Shown here piece by piece: positions 1,291-25,989 of a stretch of DNA of 32,866 nt. The stretch covers positions 1-32,866 of the forward strand of contig CANRGA010000012.1 in the NCBI GenBank assembly GCA_947630055.1. The letters run 5' to 3'. This DNA is from an uncultured Bacilli bacterium. GTDB lineage: Bacteria; Bacillota_I; Bacilli_A; RF39; UBA660. Position numbers and translations under genes: made by a program. The notes beneath the pieces are model-generated. The model was given only the letters and a program-made list of their open reading frames with translations. It was not told the origin of the DNA and did no database searches. Position 1 is the first letter of the stretch. The number at the start of each line of letters is the position of its first letter.

Positions 1291-3480
1291 ATGAAGTTTA
1301 AATTAAGTGAATTATTGGCAATCTATAAGCCAGAACAACTAAATGCTTTCTTAAAAGAACACATAAACACAGATTTAGAAGACAATAATTTATTATATGA
1401 AAATATTAGTGATAACTGGACTTGCGTAGGAGATACAAAGTATAATTTATCAGCTATTAATATGCTTAAAGATTCAGGTAAAGGGCTTATAGAAAGAATC
1501 ACTAATGGAATTGATGCTGTACTTGAAAAAGAAAAAGAAAAGAATGGTTTAGCTTTTCCTAAAACTGCTGATGATATAGTTAAGGTAGCTTTTCCGCACT
1601 ATTATGAAAATAGGCAAAATGTTAAAAAAGGTACATCTGATAGACAAAATGCTTGTGAAACGGCAGATAAAGTCATAGTAGCTATTAATGATAGTACAAA
1701 ATCTAACAAGCCTACAATTGATGTGGTAGATCAAGGATGCGGAATAAGCGGTGAAAAATTTGGAGATACTATTCTATCAATTCATAAAGGCAATAAATCA
1801 ACAACAGATAAGAATTATTTGATTGGTGCGTTTGGACAGGGTGGTTCAACGTCATTGCCATTCTCTTTTGCAACAATAATAGTTTCTAAAAAAGAAGACA
1901 ACATTTATTTTACAATCGTAAAAAAATGTTTATTCGCTGACATGAAAATGGATACATATTTATATCTTACACCAAATGGTCAAGTTTCGTTGATTGAGAA
2001 CGATGAGCATAACTATGAAGATGAATATATTAATACTTTTATTAATTCAGAATCTGGAACATTAATTAGAATGATAGATATGGAGATACCACGTGAATAT
2101 AGAGTAAATGATGCTGCAAAACCTGGTATGCTTGGAGATTTTATTAATACTGAATTATACAATGTTAGCTTACCAGTAAAAGTAGTTGAAAACAGAGCAG
2201 ATTTTACAAGCAATGTTCATAAACAAAATAGATACTCATATGGTTCTAACAATAAAATGATGACGTGGGAATATGCCAGAAAAGAATATTTTGGCACAAT
2301 AAGCATTGAACACAATACAAAAGAATATAAACTAAATTATTACTTTATACTTCCACCAGATGAGTCGGATTGGGCTAAAGATGCAAAATGTAAGGATATT
2401 TTTAAACAAGTAAACGTTCATCTTGATCCGATAATTTATACTGTTAATGGACAATACATATCTAGCGAAAAATTTACAAAATTAAAAAATGCTGGTTTAA
2501 GCTTTTTACAGTATCGATTATTAGTAGATATTAATCTTGATGTTTTAGGAAAGGACAAGTATCGATTCTTTACTACTGATAGATCTAGAATTCAAGATTC
2601 AGATTTAACAAATGGCTTTCTTGACAAAGTAATTGAAGCTTTAAAAAATGAAAAAACGATAATTGATATGAATAACTATATTGCAAGTCAAAGCGTTAAT
2701 GCAAATATAGATAATGAATTAATAAATGATATTAGTAGTAATGTAAAAAGCATTTATAATAAGTTTTTGAAATCAGGCAATAAAATATTAAACATTAATA
2801 AAGGCCATCACGTTAATCCAACTTCTGAAGAGATATACTATGATTCAATTCAAGAATTTGAAATTACTACATCAAAACAAGTTTTTTACAAGAATGAAAG
2901 TATAAACGTTGTAGTAACAACTAAAGCCAAAAAGAGTGTTAATGATAAAGCAAAAATATATATGTTTGTTGATGGCAAACAAAATTATAATCATTCTGAA
3001 TCTGTGATGAATGGTAGAATTCAATATACATTAAATGATATTCCTATAGGAATGCATAATATTCAATTTGATTTATATGATGATGAATTAAATCTAGCAA
3101 AGAGAAGTAATGTATTTGAATTTGCTGTAGTTGATGATTTGAAGAAAAAAACTGAAAGTATAACTAATAATAAGGACTTAGAATTAAACATTCAACTTGT
3201 GGATGATAAGGAACTGATAATAGATACTGTAAAAAATGAAGTTGATAAAACAATTGCTGTTTATCTGTGCTTAAGCCATGATTTGTTAGTAAATAATTTA
3301 TATGGTAAGAGTGCTAGTAATGATGAAATTCAAGTATTAAAGAACAAATTATTAGAACCTATTATTCTATTCACACTTTTCCTAGGTGATAATTATGATA
3401 ATATAGAAGATATTGATAAGAAAAATGAAATTATTTTGTCGTTCTGTAACACTTTCTATATTACAAATAGTTTAAATTAA
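1291..3480 (+). CDS. Large GHKL (Hsp90/histidine-kinase-like) ATPase, partner of AIPR protein
   Basis: A 729-residue cytoplasmic protein. The Bergerat ATP-binding fold is readable: N-box around LIERITNGID (66-75, with Glu68, Asn72, Asp75), G1 box DQGCGI (147-152), and G2 lid GAFGQGGS (179-186). A helical middle region follows, then a beta-rich segment near 540-650 that looks like an immunoglobulin-type domain, and a helical C terminus. No histidine-kinase phosphoacceptor, MutL endonuclease motif or topoisomerase domain is apparent, so it is probably not a sensor kinase, MutL or GyrB. ATP-dependent conformational switching is the family expectation. Pairing with an AIPR protein suggests a sensor/effector unit against phage or plasmids; that is inference. 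GGGGAG lies upstream of the ATG. Confidence 0.8.
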   Translation: MKFKLSELLAIYKPEQLNAFLKEHINTDLEDNNLLYENISDNWTCVGDTKYNLSAINMLKDSGKGLIERITNGIDAVLEKEKEKNGLAFPKTADDIVKVAFPHYYENRQNVKKGTSDRQNACETADKVIVAINDSTKSNKPTIDVVDQGCGISGEKFGDTILSIHKGNKSTTDKNYLIGAFGQGGSTSLPFSFATIIVSKKEDNIYFTIVKKCLFADMKMDTYLYLTPNGQVSLIENDEHNYEDEYINTFINSESGTLIRMIDMEIPREYRVNDAAKPGMLGDFINTELYNVSLPVKVVENRADFTSNVHKQNRYSYGSNNKMMTWEYARKEYFGTISIEHNTKEYKLNYYFILPPDESDWAKDAKCKDIFKQVNVHLDPIIYTVNGQYISSEKFTKLKNAGLSFLQYRLLVDINLDVLGKDKYRFFTTDRSRIQDSDLTNGFLDKVIEALKNEKTIIDMNNYIASQSVNANIDNELINDISSNVKSIYNKFLKSGNKILNINKGHHVNPTSEEIYYDSIQEFEITTSKQVFYKNESINVVVTTKAKKSVNDKAKIYMFVDGKQNYNHSESVMNGRIQYTLNDIPIGMHNIQFDLYDDELNLAKRSNVFEFAVVDDLKKKTESITNNKDLELNIQLVDDKELIIDTVKNEVDKTIAVYLCLSHDLLVNNLYGKSASNDEIQVLKNKLLEPIILFTLFLGDNYDNIEDIDKKNEIILSFCNTFYITNSLN

Positions 3481-3526
3481 TATTAGTCAGGATTACAATA
3501 GATATAGAAATAGTGGTGAGTATAAT

Positions 3527-4129
3527 ATGTCAAAATGGATAAAAATATTTTTAATAATTTTTAGTATTTTAATAGTTTTTATATTAATTGATACTATGCA
3601 AGCTAAAGTATTTGATAATAGGCCTTTCTTAAAAATTACCGAAAATTATAATGATGGTAATGTCTTAAAAAAAGATAAGGGGATTTTTGTTTATACGTAT
3701 GTTTTTACAAATGGTGAAAAGGTAACAGTTTATCGTTGGGAAAAATATTCGCCACCTGAAGTAGTAAAAGATACAAATGAAAAGGAGAGTAATATGGAAA
3801 ATATTAAAGTTAGTATAAATGACAAAATATATAATGTTATACTTGAAGATAATGAAACAGTAAAAGATTTTTTAAAAATATTACCACAAGAATTTGAAAT
3901 GACTGAATTAAATGGTAATGAAAAATACATTTATATAAATACAACTCTACCTACTAATGCAATTAATCCTAAACATATTAATAAAGGAGATATTATGCTT
4001 TATGGTAATAATTGCTTAGTTATTTTTTATAAATCATTTAATACAAATTATAGTTATACTAAAATAGGACATATTGATAATTTAGATGAAATAGGTTCTA
4101 ATAATGTAGTAGTTAAGTTTGAAAGTTAA
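3527..4129 (+). CDS. Membrane-anchored cyclophilin-like fold protein
   Basis: A 200-residue protein with an N-terminal hydrophobic anchor (about 5-22). Residues 24-85 contain DTMQAKVFDNRP and a DKGIFVYTY stretch typical of small exported Bacillota proteins. Residues 91-200 match the bacterial cyclophilin-like fold family (Cyclophil_like), with TELNGNEKYIY (127-137), LPTNA, GDIMLYGNNCLVIFYKSF (154-171) and a YSYTKIGHID ending. An internal Met at residue 90 sits exactly where the cyclophilin-like domain begins and is preceded by AAAGGAGAG, so a soluble form could also be made from 3794. The fold is known from structures, but these proteins lack proven prolyl isomerase activity. The next gene is a flavin reductase remnant; related cyclophilin-like proteins are often found near oxidoreductases. 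Confidence 0.75.
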   Translation: MSKWIKIFLIIFSILIVFILIDTMQAKVFDNRPFLKITENYNDGNVLKKDKGIFVYTYVFTNGEKVTVYRWEKYSPPEVVKDTNEKESNMENIKVSINDKIYNVILEDNETVKDFLKILPQEFEMTELNGNEKYIYINTTLPTNAINPKHINKGDIMLYGNNCLVIFYKSFNTNYSYTKIGHIDNLDEIGSNNVVVKFES

Positions 4130-4153
4130 ATATAATTAAAAAATTATATATAT

Positions 4154-4161
4154 GTTATAAT
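4154..4161 (+). promoter_or_regulatory. -10 element upstream of flavin reductase remnant
   Basis: TATAAT at 4156-4161 preceded by TG gives a TG-T-type context just upstream of the AAAGGA site and the ATG at 4183. No clear -35 was identified. This fits the TG-N-TATAAT pattern seen before many genes in the window. Confidence 0.5.
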
Positions 4162-4182
4162 TATAATGAAAGGATGATTAGA

Positions 4183-4734
4183 ATGCGAAAAAATATTAAA
4201 GTAACAGAAGGAATATTTCCAATGCCAGTATTAATGATCGCTACTTATAATGAAGATGGAAGTGTTAATGTTATGAATGCGGCTTGGGGAACAATGCTTG
4301 AGCGAGATTAAGTTATGTTAAATTTGACTGAAACCCATAAAACAGTTAAAAATATTAAAGAAAGAAAGGCATTTACAGTAAGTATTGCTGATAGTAATCA
4401 TGTTAAAGAAGCCGATTATTTTGGAGTAGTTTCAGGTAATAATACACCAGACAAATTTGCTAAAAGTGGCCTTTCTTATAGTAAATCAGTAAATGTAGAT
4501 GCACCAATTATTAATGAATTTCCTGTTTGTTTAGAATGTGAATTTATAGAATATGGTGAATGTGGAGTTATTGGCAAAGTTGTTAATGTAACAGCAGATG
4601 AAAGTGTTATGAATGGAGATAATGTAGATATTTCTAAAGTATCTGCTATAGCATTTGATCCATATACTCATGGATATTATAAAGTAACTGAAAGAGTAGG
4701 TAATGCTTTTAAAGATGGTTTTGAACTTAAATAA
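4183..4734 (+). pseudogene. Flavin reductase family gene interrupted by in-frame TAA
   Basis: Reading from ATG 4183 (AAAGGATG site upstream) gives 42 residues that begin like the flavin reductase/FMN-binding family (KVTEGIFPMPVLMIATYNED, then NVMNAAWGTMLERD), then TAA at 4309-4311. The same frame continues without a gap as VMLNLTETHKTVKNI, FTVSIADSNHV, YFGVVSGNNTPDKF and DAPIINEFPVCLECEF to the stop at 4732-4734. Both halves belong to one domain of about 184 residues, so a single nonsense change at a codon that is usually charged in relatives (AAA, GAA or CAA to TAA) is the simplest reading. A downstream ATG at 4315 could start a fragment lacking the N-terminal flavin-binding strand. TAA is the normal stop elsewhere here, so recoding is unlikely. 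Confidence 0.85.
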
Positions 4735-4770
4735 TTAAAGTAAAAATCAATTTAATCTTTCAATAATATA

Positions 4771-4779
4771 TGTTATAAT
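4771..4779 (+). promoter_or_regulatory. Extended -10 promoter of pyrophosphatase gene
   Basis: TG-T-TATAAT at 4771-4779 is an extended -10 element about 20 bp before the ATG at 4799. A convincing -35 hexamer was not seen, as expected for extended -10 promoters. Confidence 0.55.
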
Positions 4780-4798
4780 TTTATAAAAGGTGGTTACT

Positions 4799-6415
4799 AT
4801 GGAAGATACAACTTATATTTTTGGTCATAAAAATCCTGATACTGATAGTGTTTGTAGTGCTATAAGTTTATCCTATTTACAAAATAGTTTAGGATATAAA
4901 ACTGAGGCCAGAATACTTTCAAATATAAATGAAGAAACTAAATATGTTTTAAAAAAATTTAAAATAGAAGTACCTAAAATATTAGATGATGTTAAATTAC
5001 AAATAAAAGATATAAATTATCATCGAGATTTTAAAATTGATAGTAAAGAATCAGTATATAATGCTTTTTTTAGAATGCAAGAAGATAATATGAGTACTAT
5101 TCCTGTAGTGGATAATGATAATCATTTTATCGGTGCTTTTGCGATGAAAGATATAGCAAAAAAAGAAATCTTAGGTGATAATACTAAATTAAAAACTAAT
5201 TATAGTCATATTTTACAAACTATTGAAGGCAAAGAAATTCTTAAATTTACTGATGAAATAGAAGGCGAAATTACTAATATAGCGATTCGTAGTACTTCTT
5301 TTTATAATCAAGATTTATTTAATAAAGATACAATATTAATTGTAGGAGATCGTCATTCTATTATTGAAGAAGCGGTTAAAAAGGGTGTTAAACTTATTGT
5401 TATTACAACTGGTCATAAAATGAAAGAAGAACATTTAGAAGTGGCTAAGAAAAATAAAGTAAATGTTATTTATACTAATAAGACTTCTTTTGATACTCTT
5501 CTTACTATCGGATTTGCAAATTATATTGAGAGTTATCGTTATACCAAAGATTTAGTTTGTGTTAATGAAAATTTAGATGTATCTGACTTTAATGAAATAA
5601 TTAATAAATCAAGACATAGTTATTATCCAGTTATAGATAATAATAATAAATGTTTAGGATTAATAAAGTTATCTGATTTAAGAGATAGTTGCCCTAAAAA
5701 AGTTATGCTTGTTGATCATAATGAAATTACGCAAAGTGTTGAAGGATTAGATGAAGCAGAAATAGTAGGAATAGTTGATCATCATAAACTCGGAACACTT
5801 GGTACTAATCAACCAATTAATTTTCGTAATATGACTGTTGGTAGTACTTGTACTATTATTTATGAATTATATAAAGAAAATAAAGTAAAAATACCAGAAG
5901 ATATAGCATCTTTACTTTTAGCAGGTATTATATCTGATACCCTACTTTTGAAAAGTCCAACTGCTACTAAAACAGATGAAAAAACTTTAAATGAACTTGT
6001 TAAAATGACGGGAATTAATCCAGAAAAATTAGCAATGGAAATGTTTAAAGCCAACGATGCTATTAAATCCAAATCACTAAAAGAAATAGTTTATATGGAT
6101 TTTAAAACATTTATTGTTGATAAAAAGACAATTGCAGTAAGTCAAGTAACAACCCTAAATGCTAAAGCAATTATTAAGCAAAAGAGTAGTTATATTAGAT
6201 TTTTAAATAAAGAAAGTACTAATCATGATTATGATGTTATGCTTTTTGCTATAACTGATATATTTAAAAATGGCTCATACTTTATCTTTAATGAAAATGG
6301 TAAAACTACTTTAAGGAATGCTTTTGGTGAATCTTTAGAACAAGGAGATTTTATTCCCGATATAATTTCAAGAAAAAAACAAATTGTACCACCAATTATG
6401 AGTGTTTTAAAATAA
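4799..6415 (+). CDS. ppaC: Manganese-dependent inorganic pyrophosphatase with CBS and DRTGG domains
   Basis: Family II (DHH superfamily) pyrophosphatase, hydrolysing pyrophosphate to two phosphates in the cytoplasm. Metal-ligand motifs are visible: GHKNPDTDS near the N terminus (His10, Asp14, Asp16), VDHNE near residue 305 and VDHHKLG near 327, followed by the DHHA2 domain. Between the first and later catalytic motifs lies a regulatory insert: a CBS motif (SVYNAFFRMQEDNMSTIPVVD), a DRTGG-like segment (IRSTSFYNQDLF, VGDRHS) and a second CBS (HSYYPVIDNNNKCLG). This matches the nucleotide-regulated CBS-pyrophosphatases of Bacillota, in which adenine nucleotides modulate activity. The ATG at 4799 is preferred over the GTG at 4790 because AAAGGTGG precedes it by about five bases. 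It ends in a strong terminator. Confidence 0.93.
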   Translation: MEDTTYIFGHKNPDTDSVCSAISLSYLQNSLGYKTEARILSNINEETKYVLKKFKIEVPKILDDVKLQIKDINYHRDFKIDSKESVYNAFFRMQEDNMSTIPVVDNDNHFIGAFAMKDIAKKEILGDNTKLKTNYSHILQTIEGKEILKFTDEIEGEITNIAIRSTSFYNQDLFNKDTILIVGDRHSIIEEAVKKGVKLIVITTGHKMKEEHLEVAKKNKVNVIYTNKTSFDTLLTIGFANYIESYRYTKDLVCVNENLDVSDFNEIINKSRHSYYPVIDNNNKCLGLIKLSDLRDSCPKKVMLVDHNEITQSVEGLDEAEIVGIVDHHKLGTLGTNQPINFRNMTVGSTCTIIYELYKENKVKIPEDIASLLLAGIISDTLLLKSPTATKTDEKTLNELVKMTGINPEKLAMEMFKANDAIKSKSLKEIVYMDFKTFIVDKKTIAVSQVTTLNAKAIIKQKSSYIRFLNKESTNHDYDVMLFAITDIFKNGSYFIFNENGKTTLRNAFGESLEQGDFIPDIISRKKQIVPPIMSVLK

Positions 6416-6508: not shown

Positions 6509-7165
6509 ATGGAAAGAGAATATTATTTAAAACTTACTAATATTTACCTTAAATTAATGCAAATGTTTTTTGTTATGCCTTTTAAATATGGCTTTTCTAG
6601 TGATAAAGAAAAAAATATTAATAGAGAAATTTTAAGTTTATATAAAAAATATTTACAACTTTTAATAAAATATCAAGAAGCCATACCATGTTTAGAAAAT
6701 GATAATAAATTAAAAAATGTCAGTTGTTATTTATATGCTTTAGGATTAAATATCCCTACAATATTTAAAAATGTTTATGAATCTTTACTTCCATGGCAAT
6801 TTGGAGCTGATCCAGGTGAAATAAGTGGTTATGATGCCTTTGTTAATAATTGGACAGATACAGAGTTATTAGAAAGATTATTTGCGGATTTAGATACTTT
6901 AAAAATAAAAGCGTATCCAAGTACAATTAATTCACCTATAAATCATGATGGCTATAAAATAGCATGTTTTTTAGATAAAGATGGTAAAGATTTTCACTTT
7001 GCAAGACAAAATCAAAATGGTATATGGTCACAAAAAATAGGTTTTGATAATAGATTATACTTAAGTGATAATCCTATGTCTTATTTAGATAAGATTCATA
7101 GATATAAATATGAATTAATTAGGACATTAGAGATAGTAAAACCCAATGAAAGAAAAGGGCGTTAA
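6509..7165 (+). CDS. Tandem paralogue 1: unknown Cys/His protein, possible papain/NlpC-like fold
   Basis: A 218-residue protein, the most divergent of three adjacent paralogues. After a helical N-terminal third, it carries VSCYLYALGL (Cys73), FADLDTLKIKAY, NHDGYKIA (146-152), DFHFARQNQNG (His163) and GIWSQKIGFD. A Cys followed by about 90 residues and then His, with the W-S-x-K-x-G strand, recalls papain-like or NlpC/P60-like peptidase folds found in toxin-like and phage proteins; this is inference from motif layout only. There is no signal peptide. It is expressed from a short leader with AAAGGGGA, and gene 2 starts inside its stop codon, so the three genes form one operon. Confidence 0.7.
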   Translation: MEREYYLKLTNIYLKLMQMFFVMPFKYGFSSDKEKNINREILSLYKKYLQLLIKYQEAIPCLENDNKLKNVSCYLYALGLNIPTIFKNVYESLLPWQFGADPGEISGYDAFVNNWTDTELLERLFADLDTLKIKAYPSTINSPINHDGYKIACFLDKDGKDFHFARQNQNGIWSQKIGFDNRLYLSDNPMSYLDKIHRYKYELIRTLEIVKPNERKGR

Positions 7166-7818
7166 TGATGAATAGTAAGAGAATTAATGCCAAAATTGTG
7201 ATGATTTTTTGGGAACTTGGAGAACTATTATCTAGAGATAATTTAACGAAAAGTTTGGCAAATCAAGAAATTAGAAGATTATATCGTGAATATTTAAAGT
7301 TATATGTTAAAATAAGTAGAATGATTCCTGAATATGATAATGGTAAATATAAAGGAAATATTAATTGTTATTTCTATGCCTTAGATTTAACATTACCTTA
7401 TGTATTTAAAGAATCATTTGAAAGAATTACTAAGCACCCTTTTTGCACAAATTTAGGAGAAATAAGTGCTTTAAAATTTTTCCGAGATAACTTTTTAAAT
7501 CCAACTTCTAGTGATTTACTTGATTATGTTTATACTGATTTAGATACATTAAAAATAAAAGCCTATAATAGTGGTATAAATATTCCACTTCATCATAATG
7601 GCTATAAAATAGCTATCTTTATGGAAAATAATAAAAGAAGTGATTATCACTTTGTAAGACAAAATATTGATGGTAGTTGGTCTTCTAAAATAGGTTATGA
7701 AGAATGTATTGTTAGAAGTGATAATCCCATAGATTATTTAAATGATAATATCTATGGAATTAAAACTGATTATGAACTTGTTAAAACATTAGAATTAGTT
7801 AAACCTAGCAAAAGATAA
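7165..7818 (+). CDS. Tandem paralogue 2: unknown Cys/His protein
   Basis: A 217-residue paralogue of the flanking genes. Conserved blocks: INCYFYALDL (Cys68), TDLDTLKIKAYNSGIN, HHNGYKIAIFME, DYHFVRQNIDG (His162), SWSSKIGYE, NPIDYLNDNIY and YELVKTLELVKP at the end. The start overlaps the previous stop (TAATG at 7163-7167); a second ATG at 7168 is equally possible, and AAAGGG lies at about 7153-7158. It is closer to paralogue 3 than to 1, which suggests a recent second duplication. The putative catalytic Cys and His are kept in all three, so all may be functional. Function unknown. Confidence 0.7.
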   Translation: MMNSKRINAKIVMIFWELGELLSRDNLTKSLANQEIRRLYREYLKLYVKISRMIPEYDNGKYKGNINCYFYALDLTLPYVFKESFERITKHPFCTNLGEISALKFFRDNFLNPTSSDLLDYVYTDLDTLKIKAYNSGINIPLHHNGYKIAIFMENNKRSDYHFVRQNIDGSWSSKIGYEECIVRSDNPIDYLNDNIYGIKTDYELVKTLELVKPSKR

Positions 7819-7832
7819 AAGGGGGAATAAAA

Positions 7833-8489
7833 ATGAATGAAATGCAATTAAGATTAAGAATTATAAGCATAAAAAAAGAAATGCTTTATATAATTATGAA
7901 ATCATTAAAAGCAAATAGATATATGTTAGTAGAAGAATTAAGATACTTATATCAAGAATATTTAAAATTGATAGTAAGATTACAAAAAAATATTCCTTCT
8001 TATAATAATGGCAAATGTAATCCATATAAAAATTGTTATTTTTATGCCTTAGATTTACCAGTACCTAATATATATAGATTAAATTATAGATTAATTTTAG
8101 ATGAAATATATTGTACAGATTTAGGTAGTATATCAAGACCAAATGATTTATATAGATTATATATACCTGAAACTGAAAAAGAAGTATTAGAGTATTTATA
8201 TAGTGATTTAGATACACTAAAGATAAAAGCGTATGATAGTGCAATAAATAAGTTACCAAAACATAATGGCTACAAAATAGCAATATTTATGGAATCAGGA
8301 AGTGATCATGATTATCATTTTATAAGACAAAATAGTGATGGTAGTTGGTCAGGAAAAATTGGTTATGAAGATTGCATAGTTAAAATGGCTAATCCCCTAG
8401 ATTATTTAAATGATAATATATATAATGAACCAACATCTTATGAACTTATTAAAACACTAGAAATAGTCAAACCTAATTTTAAAAGATAA
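7833..8489 (+). CDS. Tandem paralogue 3: unknown Cys/His protein
   Basis: A 218-residue third copy, 14 bp after paralogue 2 with a strong AAAAGGGGG site. It has KNCYFYALDL (Cys68), SDLDTLKIKAYDSAIN, KHNGYKIAIFME, DYHFIRQNSDG (His162), SWSGKIGYEDC and the shared tail YELIKTLEIVKP. The N-terminal 60 residues vary most among the copies, while the Cys, His and W-S-x-K-I-G blocks are fixed, as expected if the C-terminal two thirds form the active domain and the N terminus sets specificity or partner binding (inference). The stop codon is embedded in the operon's terminator. Confidence 0.7.
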   Translation: MNEMQLRLRIISIKKEMLYIIMKSLKANRYMLVEELRYLYQEYLKLIVRLQKNIPSYNNGKCNPYKNCYFYALDLPVPNIYRLNYRLILDEIYCTDLGSISRPNDLYRLYIPETEKEVLEYLYSDLDTLKIKAYDSAINKLPKHNGYKIAIFMESGSDHDYHFIRQNSDGSWSGKIGYEDCIVKMANPLDYLNDNIYNEPTSYELIKTLEIVKPNFKR

Positions 8490-12318: not shown

Positions 12319-12354
12319 ATAAATATAAGATAATTAAATATGGGGATGATAATA

Positions 12355-13743
12355 ATGACTAAAAAAGGTAAGAAATTAGTTATTTTTAATAGCATTATTT
12401 TATTACTTGTGTGCACATATACGATAGGTATGCATTATCAAAATGTAAAGAAATTAAATGAATCGATACCTGAAGTAAAGTTAAAAGAAATAGTAAATAA
12501 AGAAAAAACCATGGCTATAATGATATCAAGTGATGGAAGTAATTATCAGGAATATAATAGTGATACGTGGCCAAGTAATAGTTATAAATTTAAAGAAGCC
12601 AAGTGTATTGATAATAGTGGTGATGAAGTAAAAGAAGCAGTCACATATGAAGAAGGAAAAATAACATTAACCACAAATAAAACAGTATATTGTACGGTTT
12701 ATTTTGATTATAAAGGAACAATAGAAATATTAAAAGAAACGGATTCAAATAAAAATTTAAGTAGTGATTTACAAGGCGGAATGTATAGATATCAAGGTAC
12801 TGATGATGTGCGTAATTGGATATGTTTTGGAACAACGGATAATTGTGGAACAAATGAAGATGATATAGATAAATATATGTATAGAATAATAGGGATAACA
12901 CAAGAAGGACAATTATATTTAATAAAAGAAACTTTTGTAAAAGAAGAAAATTTAACTGGTTTTGCATGGAATGCTAAGTCTCATATGAGTGGTTCAGAAG
13001 TGTATGTATGTTCTAATGGTAAATGTCCTGAGTGGAATGAAACTGATATATTTCTAAGAATCAACGGAATAAGTAATGGAGAAAAAAAGGGCAAAGGTTC
13101 GTGCTATCCGTCTTGTGATGGAGCCAATACAGATATCTTTGTAGATAGCACACAATATGAATATTTGAAATCAGGAGATAACATAAATGGTGGAGAAACA
13201 TCAAGTGTTTGGTATAATTTAATTGAAAATCATAAATGGCTGTATGGAGACATCGCAGATATTGAAATAGTAAACACTTATAATGGTCAAACATTATATG
13301 AAATAGAGAGTGGCTTAACAACTGTAAAACATTACATCGGTACTGTAGAAAATGTAACAGAAGAAACATATACATGGAATCAAAATGTTAATGCTAAAAT
13401 AGGATTAATGTATATGCATGATTATTGCTTTTCTTATTATGATGGAATATCAGAAGATTCAAGAGGTAATGCTAAAGATTATAATATATTAAAAAATAGT
13501 TGGTTACATTTTAGAAAAGACAATTATAATTTTAGTAATAATTATGAATGGTTGATAACTAGACATGGTATAATTAAAACATCAATAGTCTATACGCCGG
13601 CATATGATATTTCGTATGATGGTTCATTTCCAACTGGAGCTTCTTGGCATGATTTTGCAGTCAGACCTACCTTTTATGTAAAAAATGATATACAAATATC
13701 TGGAGAAGGTACAAAAGATAATCCGTTTATAATAAATTTTTAA
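12355..13743 (+). CDS. Surface or secreted protein with N-terminal anchor (DUF6273-like C terminus)
   Basis: About 462 residues. A membrane helix follows the Lys-rich start (KKGKKLVIFNSIILLLV). The rest is extracellular: a domain with MISSDGSNYQEYNSDTWP and CTVYFDYKG, then a long region with paired Cys residues (ICFGTTDNCG, YVCSNGKCPEW, CYPSC) and a C-terminal stretch ending in FAVRPTFYVKNDIQISGEGTKDNPF. That ending recalls the V-R-P-x-F-Y-L and G-x-x-D-P-F-I endings of DUF6273/FISUMP-like surface proteins of gut Bacillota (from memory). It is monocistronic, under the XRE operator. Even-numbered Cys clusters suggest disulphides or metal sites. The function is unknown; adhesion or environmental interaction is plausible. 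Confidence 0.65.
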   Translation: MTKKGKKLVIFNSIILLLVCTYTIGMHYQNVKKLNESIPEVKLKEIVNKEKTMAIMISSDGSNYQEYNSDTWPSNSYKFKEAKCIDNSGDEVKEAVTYEEGKITLTTNKTVYCTVYFDYKGTIEILKETDSNKNLSSDLQGGMYRYQGTDDVRNWICFGTTDNCGTNEDDIDKYMYRIIGITQEGQLYLIKETFVKEENLTGFAWNAKSHMSGSEVYVCSNGKCPEWNETDIFLRINGISNGEKKGKGSCYPSCDGANTDIFVDSTQYEYLKSGDNINGGETSSVWYNLIENHKWLYGDIADIEIVNTYNGQTLYEIESGLTTVKHYIGTVENVTEETYTWNQNVNAKIGLMYMHDYCFSYYDGISEDSRGNAKDYNILKNSWLHFRKDNYNFSNNYEWLITRHGIIKTSIVYTPAYDISYDGSFPTGASWHDFAVRPTFYVKNDIQISGEGTKDNPFIINF

Positions 13744-17074: not shown

Positions 17075-17100
17075 AAAAAATAGGAAGTTTCCTATTTTTT
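17075..17100. terminator. Bidirectional terminator between DUF4186 and toxin genes
   Basis: AAAAAATAGGAA (17075-17086) pairs perfectly with TTCCTATTTTTT (17089-17100) around a GT centre. Tracts on both sides let it work on both strands, ending the rluB-DUF4186 unit and the toxin gene. Confidence 0.88.
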
Positions 17101-17406
17101 AAATAATTCCGCATGACTGCCAGTAGCAAAAAGCAATAATATTAATTCATCACCATAAATTTTATAAACTAATAACCAGTTTGGCGATATATGACATTCA
17201 TAGCAATCTTGATAAACATTGTTATCAATTAATTTATGATTTTTATATTTTCTTTCTAGTTCTTCACCATTTGCTAATTTTTTAATAACATATTTTAACT
17301 TATTTAAATCTTTTCCTTGTTTCTTAATTGTTTTGTATTGCCTATTAAAATTATTAGTTGCATCAATTTTGTATTTTGAATTTTTAAAGTTAAAATCTGT
17401 TTTCAT
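17092..17406 (-). CDS. yafQ: YafQ-family toxin (RelE/ParE superfamily mRNA interferase)
   Basis: A 104-residue toxin predicted to cut mRNA in the ribosome. KIDATNNFNRQYKTIKKQG is the N-terminal helix. The C-terminal core YECHISPNWLLVYKI and FATGSHAELF matches YafQ: His57, His72, Trp77, His98 and Phe102 sit at the positions of known YafQ catalytic or substrate residues, while Asn76 replaces the usual Asp. The length exceeds the usual 92 or so because of an extra N terminus. The gene starts one base after the antitoxin stop, as is normal in toxin-antitoxin operons. The stop lies inside a shared terminator. Confidence 0.9.
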   Translation of the reverse strand: MKTDFNFKNSKYKIDATNNFNRQYKTIKKQGKDLNKLKYVIKKLANGEELERKYKNHKLIDNNVYQDCYECHISPNWLLVYKIYGDELILLLFATGSHAELFKK

Positions 17407-17407
17407 A

Positions 17408-17704
17408 TTATTCCTTGTCTAGATCTGCAAATAATTCTTCTGGACTATCATATGGTTTTCTTTTACCATTTTTAATATCTTTGATTATTTGATCTCCTTC
17501 TTTTAAAGCTTCTAATAATTCTTTATTTGGGGTAGGATTATACTCTTTTACTTCAAAAGGTAGGCCTCTTTCAAATATTGCTCTTTTTAAAAACATATTA
17601 ATAGCGGTACTCATATTAAGACCTAGGTTATTAAATAATTTATTTGCTTCATTTTTAACATCGGTGGGAACATTAACATTAATTACACTGGTTAGATTTG
17701 CCAT
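17408..17704 (-). CDS. dinJ: DinJ/RelB-family antitoxin
   Basis: A 98-residue antitoxin. The N-terminal part VINVNVPTDVKNEANKLFNNLGLNMSTAINMFLKRAIFERGLPF is a ribbon-helix-helix DNA-binding domain typical of DinJ/RelB; the acidic C terminus (EELFADLDKE) would wrap the toxin. It is the first gene of the two-gene operon and normally autoregulates it. AAAGCGAGATG precedes the start on the minus strand. The inverted repeat over the predicted -10 fits its role as operator-binding partner. Confidence 0.92.
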   Translation of the reverse strand: MANLTSVINVNVPTDVKNEANKLFNNLGLNMSTAINMFLKRAIFERGLPFEVKEYNPTPNKELLEALKEGDQIIKDIKNGKRKPYDSPEELFADLDKE

Positions 17705-19859: not shown

Positions 19860-20690
19860 ATGGAGCCATATTTTATTAATGAAGCATTAGATAAAGCAAT
19901 TAATGATTATATGAGCAGTAAAGACAAAGTAGAAAGTGTTCTTTATAATTCTTTTTTAGTTGTTGTAATTAGAATGCTTATAAGTATATATGGTGAACTT
20001 GATATAATTAATCCTTACCAAATTAAAAATGAAGAAGCATTTAAAAATAATTTAATGAAGTTTGGAGCAAAAAAAGAAGACATTGAAAATTTATTTGAAC
20101 TTATTTCTGATTTTTATTTAATAGAAAGAAGAAATAGTTTAGCAATTAAAAGAGAAGAAAATACTTATTTTATTAGTGTTCAAAAAGCATTGATAGATTT
20201 ATTTACTTTAAAAAGATTAAACTTCGGTTTAACCGATAATGAAAGTAAAGACTTTTTTGATCTTCTATATACACCAGGGACTTCAAATATTTTAAGACAA
20301 TCTTATAATTATTTAAATGCTAGTGATATTTATGAAATAGCAGCTTATTATCAAAATAAAATGTTAGAAAAACCAAAAGTAGAGGAAGTAGAAGAAGAAA
20401 AAAAATTATTAAAATTCGATATTTATAAATTGTTTAATGTCAGTGTTGCTGATATAAGCAAAATGAATGCTGAAGATGTTGATAAATTAAATAAAGAAAT
20501 ATATAAATCATTTGATATAAGTGAAAATGCTATTAATAAAGATTATTTATTAGAGGAAAAATTAAAAGAAATAAAAATGCAAAATAGTCCAATAACAACT
20601 GGTAATGGTTATGTTGATATTTTACTTATTATGAGTGTTATAGTAACTACTATTATGGTGGTAGTAATATTTAGTACAATAGTTTTTTAG
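19860..20690 (+). CDS. Unknown protein with C-terminal membrane anchor
   Basis: About 276 residues. It is helical through most of its length (MEPYFINEALDKAINDYMSSKDKVESVLYNSFL, IKREENTYFISVQKALIDLFTLKRLNF, NYLNASDIYEIAAYYQNKML) and ends in one membrane helix (VDILLIMSVIVTTIMVVVIF). Residues in the last third contain KLFNVSVADISKMNAEDVDKLN. No family was recognised. TAGGTGAGAG precedes the ATG at 19860, so an upstream in-frame ATG at 19833 is rejected because it sits inside the promoter. It lies directly before yutD, and its tail-anchored layout matches the 18248 protein. Confidence 0.65.
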   Translation: MEPYFINEALDKAINDYMSSKDKVESVLYNSFLVVVIRMLISIYGELDIINPYQIKNEEAFKNNLMKFGAKKEDIENLFELISDFYLIERRNSLAIKREENTYFISVQKALIDLFTLKRLNFGLTDNESKDFFDLLYTPGTSNILRQSYNYLNASDIYEIAAYYQNKMLEKPKVEEVEEEKKLLKFDIYKLFNVSVADISKMNAEDVDKLNKEIYKSFDISENAINKDYLLEEKLKEIKMQNSPITTGNGYVDILLIMSVIVTTIMVVVIFSTIVF

Positions 20691-23699: not shown

Positions 23700-24410
23700 A
23701 TGAAAAAGATAATTTTATGGATAACTATAATATTAATTTTAGTTGCTAGTTGTTTTGGTATATATCTATTTATTAATAATGATAACAAAGTAGATGAACC
23801 TAAAGAAAATAAAACTGAAGAAAAACAAGAAGTAGATGAAGAAAAAGAGCCAGAATATGTTGATAATAATCCAATAGTAGTAGGATTATATAAAAACTAT
23901 CATAATGGCAAGGAAAGAGAATTAATAAAAGAGTATAATGCTAAATGGGAATATCATAAAGATATATCATCTTTTGAAGTATTTTATACTAATGAGGAAT
24001 TAATAAGTAGTAAAAATCAAATTCAATTAATTGATGAGTATAAAAATAAATATAGTAATATTGATAACTATCGAATAGGATATCTTATTGAATTTAGTAT
24101 TGGTGATAATAAAATAAATAAAACTATTTTAAGACCTAAAGATAGTGAAGAATTCTTTGATTATTTAGAAATATATTTATATGATGATTATCATCGTAAT
24201 GGTTCTTGGTATAGTCATACTACTGAAGAAGAAATGAATGAAGAAACATTGCTTACATCAATTAAACTTACAGCAGGTAAAAAAGTAAATGAAATAACAT
24301 CTGATATTGAATTAACTGCTTTTACTTATGATAGTGATGATTTTACTGATGATGGATATTATAAAGGAATTAGTAAATATACTATAATTGTAAAAAATAA
24401 TAATAATTAA
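23700..24410 (+). CDS. Unknown protein with N-terminal membrane anchor
   Basis: A 236-residue protein beginning with a hydrophobic helix (IILWITIILILVASCFGIYLFI), so it is anchored in the membrane with its bulk outside. A Lys/Glu-rich linker (EPKENKTEEKQEVDEEKEPE) leads to a domain with VGLYKNYHNGKERELIKEYNAKW, WEYHKDISSFEVFYTNEE, IGYLIEFSIGDNKINKTILRP and a final beta-rich part. VASC resembles a lipobox, but the Cys lies within the helix, so processing is uncertain. No family recognised. It follows the S1 gene by six bases and is probably cotranscribed, then ends at a terminator. Confidence 0.65.
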   Translation: MKKIILWITIILILVASCFGIYLFINNDNKVDEPKENKTEEKQEVDEEKEPEYVDNNPIVVGLYKNYHNGKERELIKEYNAKWEYHKDISSFEVFYTNEELISSKNQIQLIDEYKNKYSNIDNYRIGYLIEFSIGDNKINKTILRPKDSEEFFDYLEIYLYDDYHRNGSWYSHTTEEEMNEETLLTSIKLTAGKKVNEITSDIELTAFTYDSDDFTDDGYYKGISKYTIIVKNNNN

Positions 24411-24422
24411 AAATAAATTTTG

Positions 24423-24450
24423 AAACAAATATATTAAGTATTTGTTTTTT
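24423..24450 (+). terminator. Intrinsic terminator after the 23700 gene
   Basis: AAACAAATA (24423-24431) pairs with TATTTGTTT (24439-24447), followed by more T residues. Confidence 0.82.
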
Positions 24451-24514
24451 TAAGAGACTTTATCAATATTTAGAATATAAAAGATAGATTACTGTATATT
24501 GTATATACATAACT

Positions 24515-24594
24515 AAAAAAAGACGTCGTCCAAGTAGTAATACCAGGATAACGTCATTTAGGTAACTAGGTGACGTGAAATTCACGCTTCCTAT
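24515..24594 (-). ncRNA. Probable small RNA with its own promoter and terminator (about 80 nt)
   Basis: On the minus strand, a TTGATA/17/TATACT promoter predicts a start near 24594. The RNA would contain a hairpin CGUGA-AUU-UCACG (24586-24574), then a terminator hairpin GACGUUAUCC (24555-24546) against GGACGACGUC (24531-24522) with one mismatch and one G-U pair, then seven U (24521-24515). ACGUCA (24576-24571) can instead pair with UGACGU (24556-24551), excluding the terminator. The block is richer in G and C than its flanks, and no open frame is apparent. UCACCUA in the loop region could pair with AGGUGA-type ribosome-binding sites. No known RNA family was recognised. Confidence 0.6.
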
Positions 24595-24600
24595 AACTTA

Positions 24601-24629
24601 AGTATAAACAAATATTATTAAAATATCAA
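24601..24629 (-). promoter_or_regulatory. Sigma-A-type promoter of the small RNA
   Basis: On the minus strand, TTGATA (24629-24624), a 17-bp spacer (24623-24607), and TATACT (24606-24601). It lies right after the stop of the PIG-L gene and points away from it. Confidence 0.65.
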
Positions 24630-24633
24630 TATT

Positions 24634-25989
24634 TTATTTTTTTCTTCTAAGTATTATTAATAATAAAATAATTGATATAAGTATTAAACCTACAGGAAGT
24701 AAATAATCTTTATATTTTTCTATGTAATATTTAATATCTTTTTTATTTGTTTTGTCTTCTTTTTTATTAATTGTATTTTTATCTTTATTTTCTTCTTCTT
24801 TTACTTGATCTTTATATAAAGTAATATTTTCTAACATGTCGTTTTTATTAACATCTTCACCAGCCAAACTACGATAAAGACCAAATTCTAAAGGAGAATA
24901 AGTTTTAATATCAGTAGCTTTAGTATATTCATTATTTTTACCATTAATCCAACCTGTAAACCATGTCCATTGTTGACTATTATGTTTACTATAACCCTCT
25001 TTAGATACTTCATAAGCTGTTTTACCATTAAAATAATCAAGTGGTATATCATAATTCATTGTAATTTGATTTTCTTTGTATAAGTGAAGATAAGTTTTAG
25101 GTACATTCCAATTACCATATTTATTATAAGATTCTGGATGGAATGCACTATCATTAGCTTTTTCAATAGCTTGCTCTAAAATATAAGTATTTAAAATATG
25201 TTGACCATGAGAATATTCTCCTTTTTCATCATGTCCTACAACTACTTGTGGTTTAAATCTTCTTATATTTTCTACTTCAAAGTTTAAGGCATCTTCTTCG
25301 GTTAAATTAGCCTTTTTTAAATTATTTAAAGCCCCATTTAAAGATTCAGAATAAGCATCAGGGACAATTCCGATAATAGGGTAATTTCTAATACCTACTG
25401 TATATAAACCATGTAATTGTTCATGTAATCTTTTTGGATTATCAAAATGATTAGTAAAATAAACTACTTGGGTATAAGCTCCTCTTGCAACATAAGTAGG
25501 AAGAAGACCTAAAAAGAATAGTTGCTCATCATCACTATGCGTAGAGAATAATAAAACATCAGCTTTTTCACAAGGTGTCTTCCATATTTCGACATATTCG
25601 GGTATCTCACCTTCCCCAATAACATAAATTTCGCCAATTTTAACATCATTATCATATGTAATAGTAAGTTCTTTACTTTTATTTTCTTTTAAATCAATGT
25701 ATTCATGTAAAAAGTTATTAACACCAATATTTATATTTTTATTATTAATATTTATATTACCAGTTTGACTACTTAGTTCATATATAATATAAATTCCATA
25801 TATATCTTCTTCACTAGTAATACTTATAGTAGATCCTTTACTAATAGATAGATAACTATTTTCATTATTATCTTTTAATTTACTAGCTATAGTATCATTA
25901 ATTTTATAAGTAGATACATCTGTAATATCTTTAGCACTTACCATTAAAGGCATTAAAACTAACATAAAAATTAAAACAAACTTCTTCAT
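24634..25989 (-). CDS. Membrane-anchored PIG-L/LmbE-family deacetylase
   Basis: A 451-residue zinc-dependent deacetylase expected to act outside the cell. A signal peptide covers residues 1-19 (ending VSA). Residues 20-135 are a beta-rich domain (SISKGSTISITSEEDIYGIYIIYEL). The PIG-L domain carries FSTHSDDEQLFF (zinc motif H151-S-D-D-E155, the P-H-P-D-D-E pattern with S for P) and GHDEKGEYSHGQH (H261xxH264). A Lys/Glu-rich linker precedes a C-terminal membrane helix (about 430-448) and a basic stop RRKK. The layout suggests removal of acetyl groups from an envelope glycan, but the substrate is unknown. The ATG at 25989 has GAGGTAAAAAT upstream. Confidence 0.88.
   Translation of the reverse strand: MKKFVLIFMLVLMPLMVSAKDITDVSTYKINDTIASKLKDNNENSYLSISKGSTISITSEEDIYGIYIIYELSSQTGNININNKNINIGVNNFLHEYIDLKENKSKELTITYDNDVKIGEIYVIGEGEIPEYVEIWKTPCEKADVLLFSTHSDDEQLFFLGLLPTYVARGAYTQVVYFTNHFDNPKRLHEQLHGLYTVGIRNYPIIGIVPDAYSESLNGALNNLKKANLTEEDALNFEVENIRRFKPQVVVGHDEKGEYSHGQHILNTYILEQAIEKANDSAFHPESYNKYGNWNVPKTYLHLYKENQITMNYDIPLDYFNGKTAYEVSKEGYSKHNSQQWTWFTGWINGKNNEYTKATDIKTYSPLEFGLYRSLAGEDVNKNDMLENITLYKDQVKEEENKDKNTINKKEDKTNKKDIKYYIEKYKDYLLPVGLILISIILLLIILRRKK

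Follow-up and report, generated by a model that had tools for sequence, protein, structure and literature searches.

A small RNA in an uncultured gut Bacilli genome as the probable orphaned antitoxin from a type I toxin-antitoxin-like cassette present in many copies

The intergenic block at positions 24515 to 24593 on the minus strand of the window (the whole 32,866-nt stretch analyzed, from an uncultured Bacilli bacterium) very probably encodes the RNA antitoxin of a type I toxin-antitoxin (TA)-like cassette that exists in many copies, and a deletion of about 227 bp has left it an orphan at this locus. An earlier sequence-only reading had proposed an unannotated small RNA between converging transcripts; judging from comparison across genomes, it overlooked that the block belongs to such a cassette, whose toxin half has been deleted here. 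The result bears on the open question of why so many nearly identical type I TA copies are found on chromosomes and whether these copies cross-talk. Natural evolution offers a testable answer in the form of cassettes that are 99% identical overall and one-third different in a single 17-nt segment, and one site shows intact, orphaned, and empty states. Further, the analysis adds a family that none of the searched libraries contains, from an uncultured lineage of the gut.

The small-RNA gene is about 79 nt long and sits between converging genes at 23700-24410 (plus strand) and 24634-25989 (minus strand). Its promoter (24601-24629, minus strand) consists of TTGATA at 24629-24624, a 17-bp spacer, and TATACT at 24606-24601, and the transcript start is placed at 24593 from the -10 box. 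Three minus-strand segments follow: a 5' hairpin, H1 (24573-24592, GCGTG..CACGT), in which compensatory changes are seen; a middle segment of about 17 nt between the two hairpins, H2 (24556-24572, CACCTAGTTACCTAAAT), which is distinct in nearly all paralogues; and a terminator hairpin, H3 (24515-24555, GACGTT..GACGTC plus seven T), identified from sequence, fold, and covariation. The GACGTC hairpin ends at 24522 and the seven T occupy 24521-24515; a simple terminator scan did not include this hairpin among its listed sites. GC content is 40% in the block versus 9-25% in the surroundings, and the predicted fold of the minus-strand RNA has an energy of -25.3 kcal/mol (z = -4.45), with 0 of 200 shuffles as good. 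The upstream plus-strand gene has a terminator-like hairpin of its own, recognized from sequence (AAACAAATA..TATTTGTTTTTTT, 24426-24452, plus strand), which is present in genomes G000, G006, and G017 and absent from G010 and G020, where the site is empty. Taken alone, observations on this one sequence would be weak because the region holds no more promoter-like matches than chance predicts (30 found versus 34 expected in 3.5 kb), and a single TTGATA-17-TATACT match is not special. We regard the decisive evidence for a small-RNA gene as comparative, across copies.

A search of the whole genome that contains the window returned four full copies, and a covariance model (R1) brought the number to six: C12 (the window copy), C4, C18, C43, C8, and C29. 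The window copy matches R1 over 24592-24517 with 89.2 bits, one of the top scores in the family. Within the genus, matches occur in 24 of 38 genomes, with up to about 16 per genome, although these counts include some weak matches that are the opposite strand of the same copies, and many copies form tandem arrays with a spacing of 330-360 bp. The promoter is kept at the same place across the 117 copies with enough upstream sequence, scoring 9.05 out of 12 versus 6.2 for shuffled sequence; the -10 box is TATACT in 71 and TATAAT in 35 (together 106/117), the spacer is 17 in 71, and a T run ends the RNA in 113/119 copies. Compensatory changes occur in 12 of 13 RNAalifold pairs (63 aligned copies). 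For the two-hairpin structure, including its outer AGG/CCU pairs, 94.7% of cells pair and 94 cells carry double changes versus 29.7 when shuffled, a value reached in 0 of 500 shuffles, a pattern of selection on RNA structure. The promoter, the RNA of about 80 bases with its seven-T terminator, the elevated GC content, the place between converging transcripts, and the two hairpins had all been called from the one sequence, and all are borne out; that the block is a genuine, discrete, unannotated small-RNA gene is well supported by conservation. Rfam 15 gave no family match in the window at gathering or permissive thresholds (best chance match E 6.9).

Outside the genus, matches to the RNA family are rare. 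G208 and G295 carry the RNA together with a small membrane ORF with a Shine-Dalgarno sequence (SD), and G375 carries the RNA with promoter and terminator and no convincing peptide. In G295, which belongs to another genus (loci L204 and L203), these distant members have the same layout, with the peptide MNDKKFYQVIIILLLFIMINSQKKRRFPR preceded by AGGAGG at one copy; its two RNA copies have identical hairpins, share flanks, and differ in H2. A weak family-level match in G041 was discarded, having neither the promoter-RNA-terminator layout nor a partner peptide. Records of the family that carry a name come from uncultured Bacilli of the rabbit and goat gut. In G003, G022, G035, and G009, many cassette copies lie less than 300 bp from contig ends, so that assemblies break there, and true copy numbers in these genomes are probably higher than the assemblies show.

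On the strand opposite the RNA, a hydrophobic ORF with a good SD and one predicted membrane helix is found in 88 of 119 copies (74%), compared with 9 of 1624 random positions (0.55%) and 2 of 119 copies on the sense strand. The peptides are mostly 33-39 aa long, for example MKARNREKVLLLIILMLVYILYTLIERGVVQVVIQG with a GTG start at C18, and pN/pS is 0.19-0.41 over the roughly 21 codons outside the RNA overlap, which argues that the peptide is under purifying selection. The ORF terminates within the RNA gene, which makes the RNA antisense to the final toxin codons and the 3' UTR; in intact cassettes it is perfectly complementary to these parts of the predicted toxin mRNA, and the complement of H3 is the coding sequence for the end of the peptide. 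In the genome of the window, C4, C18, and C8 are intact cassettes, and C12, C43, and C29 are antitoxin-only copies. The features of a type I TA system are thus present at the sequence level: a hydrophobic ORF with a ribosome-binding site, and an RNA that has its own promoter and terminator and is complementary to the toxin mRNA. Among 34 peptides, Pfam gave no match to known type I toxin families, including TxpA/BsrG, and searches of NCBIfam and PHROGs gave no named match; the family is absent from Rfam, Pfam, NCBIfam, and PHROGs, with neither half covered. Since the peptides match no known toxin family, we use the word toxin on grounds of architecture, and toxicity is presumed.

The ends of the toxin mRNA are themselves complementary. 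The toxin leader (GGAAG..GACGTCACC) pairs with the 3' end of its own mRNA at a mean of -29.0 kcal/mol, versus -22.7 when the 3' end is another one and -13.5 when the leader is shuffled; pairing is better than shuffled in 85/85 cases, the own 3' end is favored in 80/85, and matching changes are seen on the two sides (GCGCCACC/GGTGGCG and ACGTCACC/GGTGACGT). Folds of full and truncated toxin mRNAs show no consistent difference in SD accessibility. In the mechanism that we propose, an intact cassette would transcribe a short single-helix membrane peptide from one strand and the RNA of about 79 nt from the other. The RNA would bind the 3' region of the toxin mRNA and either lead to its decay (RatA-like, by RNase III) or keep it untranslated; H2 would set cognate specificity between paralogues, and the peptide would be toxic when its mRNA is unpaired.

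At the window locus, the history of the cassette can be read from relatives. G017 (92% nucleotide identity) carries the complete cassette in the same intergenic position, next to a neighbor protein that is 96% identical, and places the deletion junction at about 24488/24489. The internal deletion of about 227 bp, common to G000 and G006, removed the toxin promoter, the leader/5' UTR, the SD, the start codon, and the N-terminal half. What is left of the peptide gene, at 24489-24548 on the plus strand, covers profile positions 17-36 with one in-frame TAA and no start or SD, and matches the toxin profile at E 2.9e-5. The window copy alone thus has no intact toxin gene. Because G017 keeps an intact cassette at the site, G010 and G020 have none, and the window holds both deletion and remnant, we read the window copy as an orphan antitoxin.

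Such an orphan could be no more than a fossil antitoxin, a relic without a current role that has yet to erode. This reading, which applies to the window copy alone and does not conflict with our explanation of the family, is a serious possibility that we place somewhat below an even chance. The toxin at the locus is gone, and some other orphans in the genus score far lower, for instance 32-45 bits. G006, the only relative with the same deletion, is about 98% identical and shows 0 differences in 103 nt where about 2 would be expected, which makes it too close to reveal constraint on the orphan RNA. Against a relic stand the high covariance-model score of the window copy, its intact promoter and terminator, and the extensive pairing that it keeps with the intact paralogous toxin mRNAs of C4 and C18 (-108 and -118 kcal/mol, versus -144 and -147 for their own RNAs). 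Further, antitoxin-only orz loci left after toxin loss are common in Escherichia coli, and orphan OrzP is expressed in E. coli MG1655 (PMC11264685). Any trans role of the orphan would most likely concern the C4 and C18 paralogues, because it pairs far better with these toxin mRNAs than with the leaders proposed by the sequence-only reading. Under the antitoxin reading, the orphan may either still buffer paralogous toxins of its own genome or be decaying.

H2 is where the copies differ. In the richest genomes it is distinct in 13/13, 12/12, 12/12, 12/12, 11/11, 10/10, and 7/7 copies, with single repeats in G020 and G000, and the 119 copies hold 111 distinct segments; most repeats are between genomes and only two fall within a genome, and the H2 of the C43 orphan equals that of the intact C4 cassette in the same genome. 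Among 102 pairs of close paralogues, 38% of H2 columns differ, versus 4-16% on average in the other parts; in the 73 closest pairs these other parts differ by 3-13%, and one pair is 1% different overall and 35% different in H2. Assembly error is an unlikely cause, because several H2 segments are common to independent genomes and assemblers collapse near-identical repeats instead of varying one segment. The toxin mRNA carries the exact complement of H2, and so the pattern matches the expected outcome of selection for cognate recognition; it suggests a specificity barcode that keys each antidote to its own toxin. For H2 only, a mutational by-product, such as template switching between the flanking hairpins, could be invoked instead of such selection. 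The segment does sit between two strong inverted repeats, and its stem potential is modestly above chance (a stem of at least 4 bp in 68% versus 47%), support too modest for us to retain H2 as a firm hairpin. Nearly all segments are distinct, however, and repeats fall mostly between genomes, as expected if paralogues are kept apart, and we consider the mutational account the less likely of the two. Our wider proposal is tentative and falls a little short of probable: a new type I TA family whose paralogous cassettes, up to about 16 per genome, would be mutually insulated by the barcode of about 17 nt, which would diversify far faster than the rest by selection or a dedicated mutational process, with antitoxin-only copies as free-standing protectors.

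The sequence-only reading had itself favored an independent small RNA acting in trans, its UCACCUA pairing with ribosome-binding sites, with an optional terminator/antiterminator switch. It was right about a discrete RNA gene with promoter and terminator, and CACCTA does lie between two strong hairpins. The targets that it named, the leaders at 19860 and of dacB, pair with the RNA at -16.4 and -17.2 kcal/mol, values equaled or bettered by 73% and 17% of shuffled RNAs, and other window leaders pair better. The alternative ACGUCA/UGACGU pairing exists, but a switch finds no support in covariation: 82% of cells pair versus 80.9% when shuffled, with no more double-change pairs than in shuffles. 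Most copies, moreover, are antisense to the conserved membrane-peptide gene, and the CACCTA motif is best read as part of the antisense overlap with this cis-encoded mRNA, which leaves the trans-acting account very improbable. Equally hard to credit is a dispersed noncoding repeat (REP/MITE-like or a bidirectional terminator) with incidental small ORFs, which would fit the multicopy, intergenic, palindromic copies, their tandem arrays, and the empty sites, but not an ORF with SD in 74% of copies versus 0.6% of random positions, the purifying selection on the peptide, the promoter and terminator kept in register, or the lack of a transposase adjoining the copies inspected. Searches of phage, plasmid, and viral contigs gave no match to the family, and a phage or plasmid origin was rejected for this reason. 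For the tandem arrays, an integron-attC-like reading was set aside because each RNA comes with a promoter and the ORF between successive RNAs invariably encodes one kind of peptide.

In the known systems TxpA/RatA and BsrG/SR4 of Bacillus subtilis, the transcripts converge, and the mRNA for a short membrane toxin is overlapped at its 3' end by the antitoxin RNA, with RNase III-dependent decay (PMC4147584). The cassette shares this convergence and the overlap with the predicted toxin mRNA 3' end; unlike these systems, it has a shorter peptide with no Pfam match to known type I toxins, an RNA of about 79 nt, an overlap extending into the final toxin codons, numerous tandem copies, and a hypervariable H2. 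As to TxpA/RatA (Hol_Tox-like), then, the 3'-end RNA overlap was found and toxin homology was not. In AapA/IsoA (Helicobacter pylori) and Hok/Sok, the toxin mRNA forms a 5'-3' long-distance interaction (PMC6733600). The cassette is likewise multicopy with mutually complementary toxin mRNA ends. It differs in that the antisense RNA is placed at the 3' end of the toxin mRNA and that no relation in sequence was found, and full and truncated folds do not clearly show that its 5'-3' pairing hides the SD. In modules of the CD2517.1/RCd8 type (Clostridioides difficile), toxin and antitoxin genes are also convergent, overlapping, and many per genome, and antitoxins are reported to be mostly cognate-specific despite homology (PMC6563280); their toxins are 50-53 aa, and the portion of that report relied on here describes no compact hypervariable segment like H2. 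Zor/Orz also leaves antitoxin-only loci after toxin loss, but its layout and sequences are unrelated, and no per-copy hypervariable segment is described in the pages concerned (PMC11264685).

Directly 3' of a diversity-generating retroelement in the same genome lies the antitoxin-only copy C43 (C43:2500-8600, L010; element at 3151-6101, minus strand). The element comprises a MutS_I-like protein, a bAvd-like protein, a reverse transcriptase, a template repeat, and a variable repeat, and the two repeats differ mainly at adenines. A retroelement or SINE-like reading of the family was dropped, as other copies go with toxin ORFs and have no retroelement link. In the window, a 467-aa protein (12340-13743) has a C-terminus (RPTFYVKNDIQISGEGTKDNPFIINF) that resembles the end of the C43 retroelement target protein and is possibly a second target or a relative. 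Elsewhere in the window, 17092-17704 holds a type II TA-like pair, judged by eye (RelE/YafQ-like, 104 aa, and RelB/DinJ-like, 98 aa), and 6509-8489 holds three tandem paralogous genes of 217-218 aa with no assigned function.
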